Source of the DNA: an uncultured Alphaproteobacteria bacterium
GTDB taxonomy: Bacteria > Pseudomonadota > Alphaproteobacteria > Reyranellales > Reyranellaceae
DNA length: 19,426 nucleotides
Direction: 5' to 3'
NCBI GenBank assembly: GCA_903929895.1
Contig: CAIYWM010000224.1
Span: 1 to 19,426 of the forward strand
Part shown: piece after piece, positions 9,606 through 15,767 of the stretch
Numbering within the stretch: position 1 is the stretch's first letter
Layout of the letters: each line of letters starts with the position of its first letter
Notes under the pieces: generated by a model
The model's database searches: none
Seen by the model: only the letters and a program-made list of their open reading frames with translations
What the model was told of the DNA's origin: nothing
Made by a program: the position numbers and the translations under genes

Positions 9606-11514
<1,909 letters not shown>

Positions 11515-11610
11515 CCCGGTGACTCGTCACTCCACGCACGACACAGCCCAATATCCGGGCTCATCGCCGTCGTGGCAACCCGACAGGCGCCAGCCCGGCG
11601 GATGCGCGCG

Positions 11611-12054
11611 TCACCTGGCCAGCCTGACGTCGATCGTAACGGATTGTCCGCCGACGACCTTGAACGCCGCTTCATCGAAGCGCGGTGCGCGCATCGTCGG
11701 CCGCGCATTGTTCGACACGCCCCAGGCTTCGGTGGGCATGCCGAGGAAGTTGGTGTCGGTCCGGCGGTTGCCGTTGAGATCATGCGATACCGAAACGGCG
11801 TAGGTGCCGTCGGGCAGGTTGGCATATCGGCAGCTCACGCCCTTCGGATCAGCAGGAAGCCAGAGAGCCGTGGCGCCCGAGTTGTCCATGGGAAAGCCGC
11901 GACCGTCGGGAAACAGCGCGCAGCCGATCGAGCCACGGGCTTCGCTGATGCCCGAGACATTGATCACGATATCGGCTGCGCGCGCATCGCTGGGCGTGCC
12001 CACCAACAACGCAACGGAGAGCAGGGAGTATAGGGAAAGGCTGCGGGAGAGCAT
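11611..12054 (-). CDS. DUF2141 exported protein
   Basis: A 147-residue periplasmic protein of the DUF2141 family. A signal peptide covers residues 1-26 (cleavage likely after SDARA). The mature part has the family stretches IGCALFPDGRGFP, CRYANLPDGTYAVSVSHDLNGNRRTDTN (given here as its conserved core, a Ca-loop-like DLNGN-x-x-TD), LGMPTEAWGVSNNARP and FDEAAF. It is predicted to be a beta-sandwich; the function of the family is not established. ATG 12054 has GAGG six bases upstream. Its promoter region carries two copies of a 15-bp dyad. Its 96-nt distance to tetR without a terminator allows cotranscription with tetR and phaA. Confidence 0.85.
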   Translation of the reverse strand: MLSRSLSLYSLLSVALLVGTPSDARAADIVINVSGISEARGSIGCALFPDGRGFPMDNSGATALWLPADPKGVSCRYANLPDGTYAVSVSHDLNGNRRTDTNFLGMPTEAWGVSNNARPTMRAPRFDEAAFKVVGGQSVTIDVRLAR

Positions 12055-12104
12055 GGACCACCTCGTCGCGAGAAAAGGAAACGGCCTGGCCTTGGAAGAC
12101 GTCC

Positions 12105-12154
12105 GGTTGACACCGTCTACTCATCCTAATCTCACACAGTAGACATCGTCAACC
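12105..12154 (-). promoter_or_regulatory. Promoter of the DUF2141 gene flanked by two matching operator dyads
   Basis: On the minus strand TTGACG (12152-12147) and TAGGAT (12128-12123), 18 bases apart, form a sigma-70-type promoter about 70 bases before the DUF2141 start. Two 15-bp dyads of form GT(T/A)GAC-nnn-GTC(T/A)AC flank it: 12139-12153 covers the -35 and 12106-12120 covers the predicted start site. Their centres are 33 bases apart, about three helical turns. The copies are inverted relative to each other, and 13 of 16 bases match. The right copy overlaps the stop codon of the acyltransferase gene. The shape is typical of TetR-family operators, and the nearby tetR is the obvious candidate. 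Confidence 0.68.
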
Positions 12155-13339
12155 TTTCCTGGAAACGGCTTCAGGTTCGGCCGCCCGGGCCGACGTTGCT
12201 GCCGCGCCTCTCATGCCGAACAACGGCCGCAGGAACCCGACCGGCCTGACAACGCCGACATAGAGCAGTGCGGTTCCAAGGAAGGTGACCAGGACCGCCG
12301 CGAAGAATCCCGCGACCGGCGGCACGTCGAGTTTCAACAGCCAATAGACGGCGATCACGGTCACGGTCTGGTGCAGCAGATAGAAGGGATAAACCGCCTC
12401 CGTCGCCTCGGTCAGGAAGGCCGGCCGTCGGTTCAGGTGGCGGTACGCGAAGCCGATGATGGCGAACAGCCACGCCATGACGTTGATCGCCGACAGCAGC
12501 GCAAAGAGCGGCCGAACCTCCGGCGGAATGGTCTCCCGGACGGTGCCGGCGAAGAAGCCGGTGTAGAGGATCGCGTACGCGAAGAGCCCGACGGCCAGCG
12601 AGAAGAAGCGTTGGCCCTGCAACGCCGTCAGAAGGTCGGACGATCCGAAGATGAAGGCGCCGTAGAGCAGCAGCGCGCCATAGGAGACGAGGCCGTGCCA
12701 GTCGCCGACCAGCCCGTTGACGTTCCACGAGATCGGCGCCAGCCAGAGGGTCGAGGCGGCGAGCGGCAGGACCATCAGCCACTGCAGGCCGAGGCGGGCG
12801 GCGATCCGGCCGGCCCGCGCAACGGCCGCCTGTCCCGACGCCGACCGCGCCCACAGGAAGACCGGCAGCAGCACCAGCGTCAGCACGAGGACGTAGGCCA
12901 GGAACCAGAGGTGATGCCAGCTCAGGTTGCCCTGCGGGTAGACGCCGTCGAAGGCGTGCGGCAGCCATTGCAGGAACGAGCCGGTGAACTGGCCGCGATA
13001 GAGCCGCTCCAGATAGACCTGCGGCGGCACGATCACGACCATGCCGAAGGCCAGCGGCAACGCCAGGCGCCTCAGGCGATCGCGGACGAACGCTCCCGGC
13101 GTGCGATCGCCGAGCGCCAGCATGATCGCCGCGCCCGAGACCAGGAAGATCAGCGGCATGCGCCAGCGGTTCAGGAACCGCATGGCCTCTCGCAGCCCTT
13201 CCAGGCTGTCGGGGCTGGTGACGTGCCAGCTCCAGCCCGACCAGGCCATGCCGGCGTGGTAGAAGATCAGAAGGCCGAAGGCGAGGACGCGAAGCCAGTC
13301 GAGATCGGCGCGGCGAGGGGCAAAGGCGACAGACTGCAT
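12149..13339 (-). CDS. Acyltransferase family 3 membrane protein (OpgC-like)
   Basis: A 396-residue integral membrane protein with about ten predicted helices, of the acyltransferase-3 family. The N-terminal signature RRADLDWLRVLAFGLLIFYHAGMAW holds the conserved histidine H28; WRMPLIFLVSGAA and LSWHHLWFLAYVL follow. Such enzymes move acyl groups (acetyl, succinyl) onto glycans, lipids or other exported molecules at the inner membrane. The substrate is unknown. The ATG 13339 has a weak ribosome site. The gene follows the LytTR regulator by 116 nt, and that gap carries three direct repeats likely to bind the regulator, so regulation by it is likely. Confidence 0.86.
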   Translation of the reverse strand: MQSVAFAPRRADLDWLRVLAFGLLIFYHAGMAWSGWSWHVTSPDSLEGLREAMRFLNRWRMPLIFLVSGAAIMLALGDRTPGAFVRDRLRRLALPLAFGMVVIVPPQVYLERLYRGQFTGSFLQWLPHAFDGVYPQGNLSWHHLWFLAYVLVLTLVLLPVFLWARSASGQAAVARAGRIAARLGLQWLMVLPLAASTLWLAPISWNVNGLVGDWHGLVSYGALLLYGAFIFGSSDLLTALQGQRFFSLAVGLFAYAILYTGFFAGTVRETIPPEVRPLFALLSAINVMAWLFAIIGFAYRHLNRRPAFLTEATEAVYPFYLLHQTVTVIAVYWLLKLDVPPVAGFFAAVLVTFLGTALLYVGVVRPVGFLRPLFGMRGAAATSARAAEPEAVSRKG

Positions 13340-13404
13340 GACGAGGTTCCGGGTGGCGGATGCCCTCGACTACCCTGCAAGTCTTTGAGTCCGCGCCGTT
13401 TTGT

Positions 13405-13455
13405 GACGACCGGTGCGTCCGGTGGGACGACCGGCAGGCGCCGTGGGACGTCCGG
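13405..13455. promoter_or_regulatory. Three 9-bp direct repeats at 21-bp period: probable LytTR binding array
   Basis: GACGACCGG at 13405-13413, GACGACCGG at 13426-13434 and GACGTCCGG at 13447-13455 are separated by exactly 12 bases each. LytTR regulators such as AgrA and ComE bind 9-bp direct repeats about 12 bases apart, and YpdB and BtsR sites also repeat at about 21 bases. The array is in the 116-nt gap between the LytTR gene stop and the acyltransferase start, 66-116 bases before that start, where an activator would bind. The match in spacing is direct; the binding is inferred. Confidence 0.7.
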
Positions 13456-14301
13456 TCAGGCCCGGACGGGGGCCAGGGCCTCGAATCGCTGGCGATAGCG
13501 CCGGCTCAGGTTCACTTCGGCGCCGCCCTGCAGGCGGATGCGCCAGTCGCCGCTTACCCAGGGCGTCACCTCGACGACCCGGGCGATGTTGACCAGGTGC
13601 GATTTGTGCACGCGCACGAAACGTTTCGGATCGAGCTCGCCTTCCAGCTTCGTGAGCGACGAGCGGATCTCGAAGGTCTCGTCGCCGACATGCAGCACGG
13701 CGTAATTGCCCGCGGCCTCGATCCAGTCGATGTCGGCGACCTCGACCATGATCTCGCGGCCCTTGCGGCGCACGACGAAGCGCTCGGGCAAGGGTTCGGC
13801 CGGCGGGTCCGACACCACGGCTGGTTCGGCGGCCACCGAAGGAGCCGGCCGCGTCAGATAATGACGCAGCGCCACGGCGCCAGCGCTCAGCAGGGCGTAG
13901 GCGATGATGTCCTTCGCGAATTCGTAGACCAACCGGTCGAGGGTGAGCGGAAAGCTGTGCGGCACGCCGACGATGCCGCCGAACCACAGGTACCTGAGCG
14001 CCGCCATGCCCAGCGTGTGGGCGATGCTGAACGGCACCACCGCCGCGACGTGGATCAGGAGATTGCGCCGATGGTCGGGGATCGGCCAGCGCCGGTGCAG
14101 CCAGTAGATCGCGGGCAGCAGGGCCGCGACGACGAGATGGCTGGACACCTGAATCGCCAGGACCGTGCCGTAGGCCATCGGAAAGCCGCGCGCGGCCTCG
14201 TTCGCCATCTCGACATGCGCATGGGCGAAGACGGAGACCGTCAGCAACGCCGCCCAGATCGCCGGCACGCGCCCGTCGAAGGACCTAGCCGGTGACGACA
14301 C
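13456..14301 (-). CDS. Membrane-bound LytTR family transcriptional regulator
   Basis: A 281-residue one-piece regulator. Four predicted membrane helices (about 12-28, 45-68, 80-105, 127-147) are followed by a Pro/Ala linker and a C-terminal LytTR DNA-binding domain (175-278: FVVRRKGREIMVEVADIDWIEAAGNYAVLHV, shown here in part as IDWIEAAGNYAVLHV, then RSSLTKLE, RFVRVHKSHLVN and LSRRY). There is no receiver domain, so the membrane part is the probable sensor. The GTG at 14301 overlaps the phaC stop by 17 bases and has no good ribosome site, which suggests coupling to phaC. The acyltransferase gene follows, preceded by a repeat array that fits LytTR binding. Confidence 0.87.
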   Translation of the reverse strand: MSSPARSFDGRVPAIWAALLTVSVFAHAHVEMANEAARGFPMAYGTVLAIQVSSHLVVAALLPAIYWLHRRWPIPDHRRNLLIHVAAVVPFSIAHTLGMAALRYLWFGGIVGVPHSFPLTLDRLVYEFAKDIIAYALLSAGAVALRHYLTRPAPSVAAEPAVVSDPPAEPLPERFVVRRKGREIMVEVADIDWIEAAGNYAVLHVGDETFEIRSSLTKLEGELDPKRFVRVHKSHLVNIARVVEVTPWVSGDWRIRLQGGAEVNLSRRYRQRFEALAPVRA

Positions 14302-15559
14302 GGGACCGCCGGACGGGGAGAGCGGAGATCCACTCGATCAGGGGGCTCCAGCACAGCTCGCGGGCGCGGCCGCTCACCACCATGCCGATATGGCCGAGCG
14401 GCAGGTCGATCCGCCTAGCATTCTTCAGGCCCCTCTTCGGGTCAGCCAGCGCGGCGGCCGACAGCGGCGGCACGATGCGGTCGCCCGAGGGGATCATGAC
14501 CAGCGACGGCACCTTGATCTTCGCGGGCACGATGCGACGTCCGCCGACGACCCACTTGTTGCTGCCCGGCGTATTGTCGCCGTACCAGTCGACGAGGCAC
14601 TCGCGCGCCGTCGGGCCGGCGAGCGGCGCGCCGCCGTTCAGCCAGTCCTCGAGCAGCACGAACTCCTTCGCATGCTCCCCCTGCGGGTCCATGCCGAGGA
14701 AGCGGCCGAACTTCTTCACCGAGAGCCAGGGATCGAGCGACCAGAACAGGGTCTGCAGGATGTCGACCGGCAGCTCGCCGACGCGATCGGCGAGCTGCGC
14801 CAGCAGCGGCCCCGTCGACAGCAGGAAAGCATGACCAGTGCGGTCGGCATGGAAATCCCACGGCGCCGCCATCAGCGCGAGACCGGCGACGCGGCGCGGC
14901 TTGCGCGCGGCCAGCGCCACGGTGAGCGTGCCGCCCATGCAATAACCCAGGACCGCCGGCGCCCGGCGGGCCCGCTTGGCCACGTAACCCAACGCCCGCT
15001 CGAGCCGCGCCACGTAAGCGGTGGTGTCGAAGCCGCGTTCTTCGTCGTTGGGCGTTCCCCAATCGACGAGATAGGGCCGCAGCCCCGCCGCCGCCATGGC
15101 GCGCAGCAGGCTCTTCTCTTCCGTGAGGTCGAGCACTTCCCAGCGATTGATCAGCGAGGGCACGACCAGCACGGCGCGCGCTCCGCGCTTGCGTGCGCCG
15201 CGATTCGTGGCGCCAAAATCGAGCAGGCGCGTGTTGCCCTCGCGCCAGACGGCGGGCGGATCGACGAGGGTGCGATGGACGTCGTTCCGTTGATAGGCGA
15301 GGACGCCATCGGCCAGCCGCTCCATGCGCCGGCGTATCTCGCGCTGCAGCGCCTGTTCGAACTGCCCGGCGCCCGACCGTGCTTCGAGAGCACCGATCTC
15401 CGGCAGGAGCGCCGCCAGCGACTCAGGAGGTTCGCGTGCGGGACTCGAGTTCTGCGAGCCGGGCTTCAAGAGCTTCCACGCGCTTTCGGAGCTCGCCCAG
15501 GTCATCAGGGCCGTTCCCAGATGGAGCGGCAGCGGACGGGGACCTAGTCGTGTCTGCAT
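14285..15559 (-). CDS. phaC: Polyhydroxyalkanoate synthase, class III-like catalytic subunit
   Basis: A 424-residue alpha/beta hydrolase-fold PHA synthase that polymerises (R)-3-hydroxybutyryl-CoA. The lipase-like box is GYCMGG with nucleophile C207, and D360 (SGDRIVPP) and H390 (LGHIGMV) complete the triad; WSPLIEWI is the usual C-terminal end. It lacks the long N-terminal domain of class I enzymes and resembles class III PhaC, which works with a PhaE subunit. ATG 15559 has GGGAG six bases upstream, but this start overlaps the PhaE-like gene by 137 bases; ATG 15505 (406 aa) is the alternative and has a weaker site. The PhaC core begins near QFEQALQREIRRR, after the overlap. Confidence 0.9.
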   Translation of the reverse strand: MQTRLGPRPLPLHLGTALMTWASSESAWKLLKPGSQNSSPAREPPESLAALLPEIGALEARSGAGQFEQALQREIRRRMERLADGVLAYQRNDVHRTLVDPPAVWREGNTRLLDFGATNRGARKRGARAVLVVPSLINRWEVLDLTEEKSLLRAMAAAGLRPYLVDWGTPNDEERGFDTTAYVARLERALGYVAKRARRAPAVLGYCMGGTLTVALAARKPRRVAGLALMAAPWDFHADRTGHAFLLSTGPLLAQLADRVGELPVDILQTLFWSLDPWLSVKKFGRFLGMDPQGEHAKEFVLLEDWLNGGAPLAGPTARECLVDWYGDNTPGSNKWVVGGRRIVPAKIKVPSLVMIPSGDRIVPPLSAAALADPKRGLKNARRIDLPLGHIGMVVSGRARELCWSPLIEWISALPVRRSRVVTG

Positions 15560-15767
15560 GGGACGCTCCCTGGGCAACCTGCAAGGCCGAAGCAACCTGG
15601 GCGTTCGCGGCCGCGAACAGACGGGCGATCTGCTCGGTCACCGCCTGATCCGACGCGAGCCCGGCCAGCTGGGCCTGCCACAGATCGAGATAGCGCCGGG
15701 CCAGCCTGTCGAATTCGGCGCTTGATCCGGTTGTACCGGCCGTCTTGTCGTCGTTTCCGGAGACCAT
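15423..15767 (-). CDS. Short PhaE-like PHA synthase subunit
   Basis: A protein of 114 residues (from ATG 15767) encoded directly before phaC and overlapping it out of frame. After a polar N-terminus comes a helical segment FDRLARRYLDLWQAQLAG, more helix to about residue 67, a Ser/Ala/Pro linker, and a C-terminal coiled coil DLGELRKRVEALEARLAEL. PhaE and PhaR(class IV) subunits end in a similar coil that contacts PhaC, but they are much longer (about 360 and 180-200 residues). Gene order and the coil suggest it is the synthase partner; a phasin-like protein is the alternative. Start uncertain: ATG 15785 and upstream TTG 15857 are in frame, and none has a clear ribosome site. Confidence 0.66.
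   Translation of the reverse strand: MVSGNDDKTAGTTGSSAEFDRLARRYLDLWQAQLAGLASDQAVTEQIARLFAAANAQVASALQVAQGASHADTTRSPSAAAPSGNGPDDLGELRKRVEALEARLAELESRTRTS

Follow-up and report, generated by a model that had tools for sequence, protein, structure and literature searches.

Membrane-anchored LytTR one-component regulators are already known from CoxC and HigX, and triplet operators from CoxC and RcoM1; the features given here are those described in the accessible parts of the cited sources. CoxC of Afipia carboxidovorans is an MHYT-LytTR protein with three direct repeats. It has a seven-helix MHYT gas sensor and a TTNNNGCN core, its operator overlaps the -35 element, and it represses the cox genes (PMC11347149). 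RcoM1 of Paraburkholderia xenovorans is distinguished by a heme sensor domain, a TTCNNGCA core and CO metabolism genes as targets (PMC11347149). HigX of Caulobacter crescentus reportedly prefers the unspaced inverted repeat ATGTTASC-GSTACCAT, not direct repeats, and has a COG4188 hydrolase as neighbour (PMC13384398). The LytTR Regulatory Systems (LRS; HdrRM and BrsRM) consist of two proteins, with the membrane part as a protein of its own, and they control the transcription of their own operon (PMC6193735). AlgR of Pseudomonas aeruginosa is a two-component response regulator, and a direct-repeat arrangement with 12-bp spacing is not obligatory for its sites (PMC4064291). In general, transcription factors that act on DNA while anchored in the membrane have been described as widespread (PMC10269533).

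A literature search on LytTR proteins with three direct repeats yielded CoxC only. Searches on LytTR with acyltransferase (3) and on Reyranella regulators yielded no description of the module, the operator or the oxidoreductase output reported below, and the word acyltransferase occurs 0 times in the main text of the HigX paper (PMC13384398). Here we describe a three-site array. Sequence comparison makes it very likely that this array serves as operator for the LytTR protein encoded next to it, a presumed four-helix membrane protein of the one-component kind that probably acts as an activator.

Results

The array and its neighbouring genes

The array is flanked by lytTR and acyltransferase-3 (AT3) genes that stand in tandem in a Reyranella-like genome; among the named close relatives of this genome are Reyranella massiliensis 521, R. 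aquatilis and R. soli. On the plus strand, the 9-mers GACGACCGG (13405-13413), GACGACCGG (13426-13434) and GACGTCCGG (13447-13455) are separated by 12-bp spacers and follow an exact 21-bp period. The initial annotation had given these positions and this period, and re-reading of the window (the whole 19,426-nucleotide stretch that was analysed) confirmed both. The LytTR-type geometry that it had recognized, three 9-bp direct repeats with 12-bp spacers, was likewise found. As to its remark that three sites are unusual, there are precedents in CoxC (three direct repeats) and RcoM1 (triplet) (PMC11347149). As expected of a LytTR-family direct-repeat operator, the repeats are about 12 bp apart and the core resembles a proven LytTR site.

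The genes on either side are encoded by the minus strand, so that the array is to be read as CCGGACGTC-N12-CCGGTCGTC-N12-CCGGTCGTCACAA. It runs from the lytTR stop codon (13456-13458) towards the AT3 start codon (first base 13339). LytTR-type site 1, CCGGACGTC, is promoter-distal and abuts the lytTR stop codon (13447..13455, minus strand). Site 2 is CCGGTCGTC (13426..13434, minus strand), extended to GCCGGTCGTCCCA in the alignment, and the promoter-proximal site 3 is again CCGGTCGTC (13405..13413, minus strand). Site 3 carries a conserved ACAA tail (13401..13404, minus strand; 92-97% per column in 72 arrays), and from the end of this tail to the AT3 start codon there are 61 bp. A lone GACGTCCGG occurs additionally at 12098 in the window.

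The lytTR gene (13456..14301, minus strand, GTG start) encodes a one-component regulator of 281 aa. A Pfam scan placed the LytTR domain (PF04397, E=8.5e-24) at residues 184-275, with no second Pfam domain and no match to the MHYT sensor domain (PF03707). The AlphaFold2 model, built from 46 sequences, had a mean pLDDT of 85.8. It predicted four long N-terminal helices (residues 11-37, 44-71, 78-111 and 121-150) and a linker at residues 155-167 with pLDDT below 50. The C-terminal fold matches solved LytTR domains, for example 3d6w and AgrA chains, and the fold search with the model gave credible matches for the LytTR domain only. Thus the LytTR protein with four helices and without receiver domain, as initially described, was recovered by the Pfam scan and by structure prediction. 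The four N-terminal helices would span the membrane.

The target gene AT3 (12149..13339, minus strand) encodes an acyltransferase-3 protein of 396 aa (PF01757, E=9.3e-27). It is distant to MdoC/OpgC and scored 91 bits against the PRK03854 MdoC profile, under the cut-off of 338. The lytTR-AT3 pair is framed by two further minus-strand genes. One encodes a PhaC class III-like alpha/beta hydrolase (14285..15595; TIGR01836, 156.6 bits, under the cut-off of 365.3), and its 3' end overlaps the lytTR start. The other encodes a thiolase (9606..10949; PF00108/PF02803), presumably of the PhaA type. The pair thus sits inside a PHA-type locus (9606-15595) with PhaC-like hydrolase, TetR and thiolase genes.

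Conservation in the genus

Shuffling and comparison were used to ask whether the repeats might have arisen by chance, or have no regulatory role, in the GC-rich DNA between the genes. Single 9-mers with one mismatch are indeed frequent in the GC-rich window (31 found, 22.5 expected). The spaced pair GACGWCCGG-N12-GACGWCCGG, however, matched twice in the window and in 0 of 200 dinucleotide shuffles, and the two matches in the window are the only perfect ones in the source genome. With 1-2 mismatches the pair is frequent there: 19 matches were counted in total, and 76 for the reversed control. Because this loose pattern was uninformative, a longer pattern ending in CACAA was used for the comparison of genomes.

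This pattern, CCGGTCGTC-N12-CCGGTCGTCACAA with at most 3 mismatches over 22 specified bases, detected the array in 60 of 65 genomes of the genus. The reversed control matched 39 places over the 65 genomes, and ten isolated 3-mismatch places of the genus-wide search were left out of the array counts. We aligned 72 arrays; two incidental ones (L103, L104) and one from outside the genus (L136, from G037) were then left out, which gave 69 genus arrays. In these, the sites averaged 1.66 bits per column versus 0.76 for the spacers (Mann-Whitney over columns, p=2e-6, n=69, relatedness uncorrected). Over all 72 arrays, the mean was 1.14 bits per column for site 1, 1.86 for site 2 and 1.84 for site 3. 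Site 1 matched at least 7/9 bases in 55/69 genus arrays and fewer than 7/9 in 14/69, and its best offset was exactly -21 in 65/69. The lytTR ortholog was also found in 60/65 genus genomes, partial and at contig ends in G029 and G033. The comparison with relatives that had been suggested at the outset therefore found repeats and period conserved; the exceptions are G024 and G087, in which lytTR adjoins AT3 without an array and an array stands at an unlinked BBE gene (see below).

Arrays persist in five genera of the family; a sixth genus (G037) shows two sites, and other families contain related arrays. Together, the shuffles, the genus-wide conservation and the stronger conservation of site columns than of spacer columns rule out a chance repeat as far as sequence can tell, and we give that explanation practically no weight. 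A riboswitch or other RNA element was set aside because the sites keep their sequence and DNA phase while the spacers vary.

Attachment of the array to target genes

Sorting the genus arrays by downstream gene revealed two targets: AT3 in 38/69 and a gene for an FAD/BBE oxidoreductase (BBE) in 31/69. The BBE protein has about 594 aa, with FAD_binding_4 and BBE domains in the one member scanned with Pfam and an N-terminus that looks twin-arginine-like by eye. Two arrays (L080, L134) were assigned to BBE from their listed proteins. Counted by genome (n=60), array-led targets were AT3 alone in 29, BBE alone in 23 and both in 8.

The array stands behind lytTR on the same stretch in 55/69 cases, at a distance of at most 100 bp in 49 of those 55. 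No lytTR was present on the array stretch in 14/69, 12 of them at BBE; three of these 14 (L079, L095, L088) are near contig ends. In G021 and G075 two arrays occur in series, in the order lytTR, array, BBE, array, AT3. In G066, G074 and G078 there is no array beside lytTR, and a BBE gene elsewhere has one. Against the pattern, the BBE genes of G009 and G013 lack an array; they lie close behind another gene. Five AT3 paralogues of 41-45% identity had no array in front. One pair matching 15/18 bases (L145) lies about 300 bp from an AT3 paralogue, on the opposite strand. G016 lacks lytTR, and its BBE gene has no array in front.

Judged by these placements, the array belongs to the target genes rather than to a genomic place. 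This attachment and its conservation in relatives support the initial reading of the array as an operator belonging to the AT3 gene. The circuit is not self-contained as had been suggested, given the 31/69 genus arrays that precede a BBE gene, 12 of them unlinked to lytTR.

Some single loci deviated in other ways. In G031 (L085/L017) lytTR is separated from the array by about 690 bp, and behind the lytTR stop codon stands a single site-like CCGGTCGTC. The AT3 matches at G084:C115 and G088:C342 have one in-frame TAG each, from decay of the copies or assembly errors. At G027:C121, G002:C27 and G074:C372 a second BBE gene stands in tandem behind the array-bearing one; in the stretches fetched, an array of its own was not seen.

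Relation of array and regulator

We then asked which protein reads the array. Among 51 high-quality family genomes (44 of the genus, 7 of other genera), 48 had both lytTR and array and 3 had neither (Fisher 4.8e-5, relatedness uncorrected, n=51). The three genomes with neither (G005, G016, G072) may form one clade. Among less complete genomes, both parts were absent from G080, G091 and G097; G091 and G097 had single 3-mismatch places only. In G070 (60% complete) lytTR was present and the array was not found.

Instead of the lytTR protein, a different transcription factor could bind the array, either a LytTR paralogue or an unrelated regulator, with lytTR as a mere neighbour. Many genomes do encode 2-3 LytTR-domain proteins, and G007 (73% complete) has the array and another LytTR protein, with no lytTR ortholog found. 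HigX, moreover, reportedly uses another motif, according to the accessible part of PMC13384398. In eight array-bearing genomes (G010, G019, G066, G073, G077, G081, G082, G085), however, the lytTR ortholog is the sole LytTR-domain protein, and G072 and G080 have another LytTR protein and no array. Joint presence or absence in 51/51 high-quality genomes, the related arrays of distant lytTR homologs at their own AT3 partner, and the match of the array core to a site of the LytTR-family protein AlgR at 8/9 bases also speak against a different reader, which we regard as quite improbable. Genome comparison has established the array and its period as well as the link of the array to target genes and the joint occurrence with lytTR; that the lytTR protein binds the array is our inference.

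Arrays beyond the genus

In family genomes of other genera with lytTR, a three-site array was found directly before the AT3 ortholog in 8/8, and the lytTR match lay between 3 bp and about 6.2 kb from site 1. The interval between lytTR and the array contains a sugar-type ABC transporter (Pfam) in G096 and similar reading frames in G098. G037, from another family of the same order, has two sites at the equivalent place. A search of 289 genomes sampled from the class yielded no match below 3 mismatches outside the family. Two of the class-wide 3-mismatch places adjoin distant lytTR homologs (G249, G041).

Outside the order, 11 full-length lytTR homologs were collected, defined by a query match starting no later than residue 66 and extending to at least residue 271. 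Six of the 11, from five families, are oriented divergently to an AT3 gene with 32-37% identity; the divergent lytTR homologs in these five other alphaproteobacterial families have 29-37% identity. For the remaining 5/11, no AT3 was present in the stretch fetched. A relaxed scan for CCGNTCGTC pairs at 20-22 bp revealed arrays in 5/6 divergent gaps or at the lytTR edge, reading towards AT3; placement at the edge depends on start codons that are uncertain. In the sixth gap (L208), weaker sites at about 20 bp were seen by eye. A seventh homolog (L260) has a site pair near the lytTR start and no AT3 match in 5 kb. Applied to the 27 class loci (90,475 bp), the relaxed scan returned 7 hits, of which 6 were at these gaps, and ten Markov resamples of the loci gave 0, 0, 3, 0, 2, 0, 0, 1, 0 and 0 hits. 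In L210, L211, L213 and L217 the sites follow at 21 and then 30 or 31 bp (L211 and L213 belong to one genus). The 21 + 30/31-bp steps likewise keep the helical phase.

The lytTR-AT3 gap of G051 (L217/L273) holds four site-like 9-mers at offsets -150, -129, -120 and -99, with two AT3 matches in tandem. Genes for PQQ-dependent dehydrogenases were observed beside AT3 in L253 (G096) and beside lytTR homologs in L266 (G214) and L267 (G167).

Promoter and sign of regulation

Between array and AT3, the alignment revealed a conserved core-promoter-like block (13370..13388, minus strand; columns +46..+64) with TCAA (13388-13385), TTG (13380-13378) and TAG (13372-13370). The conserved TA at columns +62/+63 presumably represents -12/-11 of a weak -10 box. 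No sigma-70 consensus pair was found at the block; it has a -10 candidate without a -35 partner, and the fit by eye to an alphaproteobacterial -35/-10 consensus was partial only. TCAA-N4-TTG, between site 3 and TAG at 13370-13388 and in the same columns of relatives, is a near inverted repeat. It may be the site of a second regulator or part of an unusual promoter.

With the -10 box placed in this way, about 9 bp separate the end of site 3 from the nominal -35 hexamer downstream of it. Activation of target transcription is favoured, to a degree somewhat better than even, because site 3 is placed like the sites of LRS activators and a -35 consensus is missing; the latter suits an activator-dependent promoter. 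The same regulator and operator could also serve repression, in which the membrane LytTR protein would block AT3/BBE until release by a signal, similar to CoxC at PcoxB. For CoxC, which is also a membrane LytTR protein and has three direct repeats, repression has been described (PMC11347149), and where a consensus -35 is missing, steric overlap with the promoter is possible. The CoxC operator overlaps the -35 element, however, unlike the placing deduced for this array; the distance of about 9 bp is close to the roughly 10 bp of LRS activators in the accessible part of PMC6193735, and the missing -35 also fits an activator-dependent promoter. Repression is therefore the less likely sign, with perhaps a one-in-three standing at best.

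Discussion

With activation as the preferred sign, the following mechanism can be proposed. The four-helix bundle would hold the LytTR transcription factor in the membrane, and the LytTR domain would dock on three 9-bp sites that lie on one helix face in 21-bp steps. The docked domain would then be positioned upstream of the weak promoter and switch on AT3. In many relatives the FAD/BBE oxidoreductase gene would be switched on too, or instead. The helix bundle probably senses the state of the membrane or envelope; it would respond to such a cue and remain in the membrane while the protein is bound to DNA. BBE and the PQQ dehydrogenases beside related loci hint at extracellular carbohydrate chemistry. 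The initial annotation had proposed membrane sensing and control over the acylation of an exported molecule, which the circuit may perform.

We tentatively put forward, at slightly less than even confidence, a previously undescribed module spread over several alphaproteobacterial families. Its parts would be AT3, a LytTR protein in the membrane with four helices, and an operator of three direct repeats in fixed helical phase. The operator would travel with its targets through rearrangements, and in one genus it would have gained a second output, the secreted-type oxidase BBE. Phase would be kept by 21+21-bp steps in Reyranella and kin and by 21+30/31-bp steps in other families. The regulator would need neither receiver nor partner while acting at the membrane, and it would link a signal from the envelope to the acylation and oxidation of an envelope or extracellular carbohydrate.

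To our knowledge, few membrane-bound DNA-reading transcription factors have a defined operator and target. The putative module brings together a sharply delimited operator of three sites, two families of target genes and many naturally occurring arrangements (adjacent, displaced, unlinked and divergent), so that binding, phasing and the sign of regulation are directly testable. Two enzyme families, AT3 and BBE, gain a shared candidate regulator. The findings also raise the question of whether the inverted-repeat motif of HigX holds for the wider four-helix group.

The comparison with known systems, again as far as the accessible parts of the sources describe them, gives a mixed picture. The site of AlgR, CCGTTCGTC, is identical to CCGGTCGTC at 8/9 bases (PMC4064291), and it is present exactly in the distant arrays L211, L213 and L260. 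With the LRS, the locus shares a membrane partner and a LytTR domain, together with direct repeats mostly 12 bp apart (PMC6193735); LRS repeats lie upstream of -35, as the sites here would with the presumed -10 box. In the LRS, the gene for a separate membrane protein directly follows that of a soluble LytTR protein and the repeats precede the regulator operon. Unlike this, predicted helices and LytTR domain are in one protein here, the array lies behind lytTR, and the next gene is AT3. Autoregulation is possible in the distant families, where the arrays lie between divergent lytTR and AT3 genes. RcoM1 has in common with our locus a direct-repeat triplet at 12-13-bp spacing that is read by a LytTR domain (PMC11347149). 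HigX is likewise alphaproteobacterial, has the same layout of four-helix bundle, linker and LytTR domain, and acts on envelope-related targets (PMC13384398); its reported unspaced inverted-repeat motif differs from the array here, which consists of direct repeats of another sequence. CoxC shares the membrane-anchored one-component LytTR design, the three direct repeats about two helical turns apart and the alphaproteobacterial origin (PMC11347149). In contrast to CoxC, the system described here has four predicted helices in the regulator, a CCGGTCGTC core in the operator and AT3/BBE targets.
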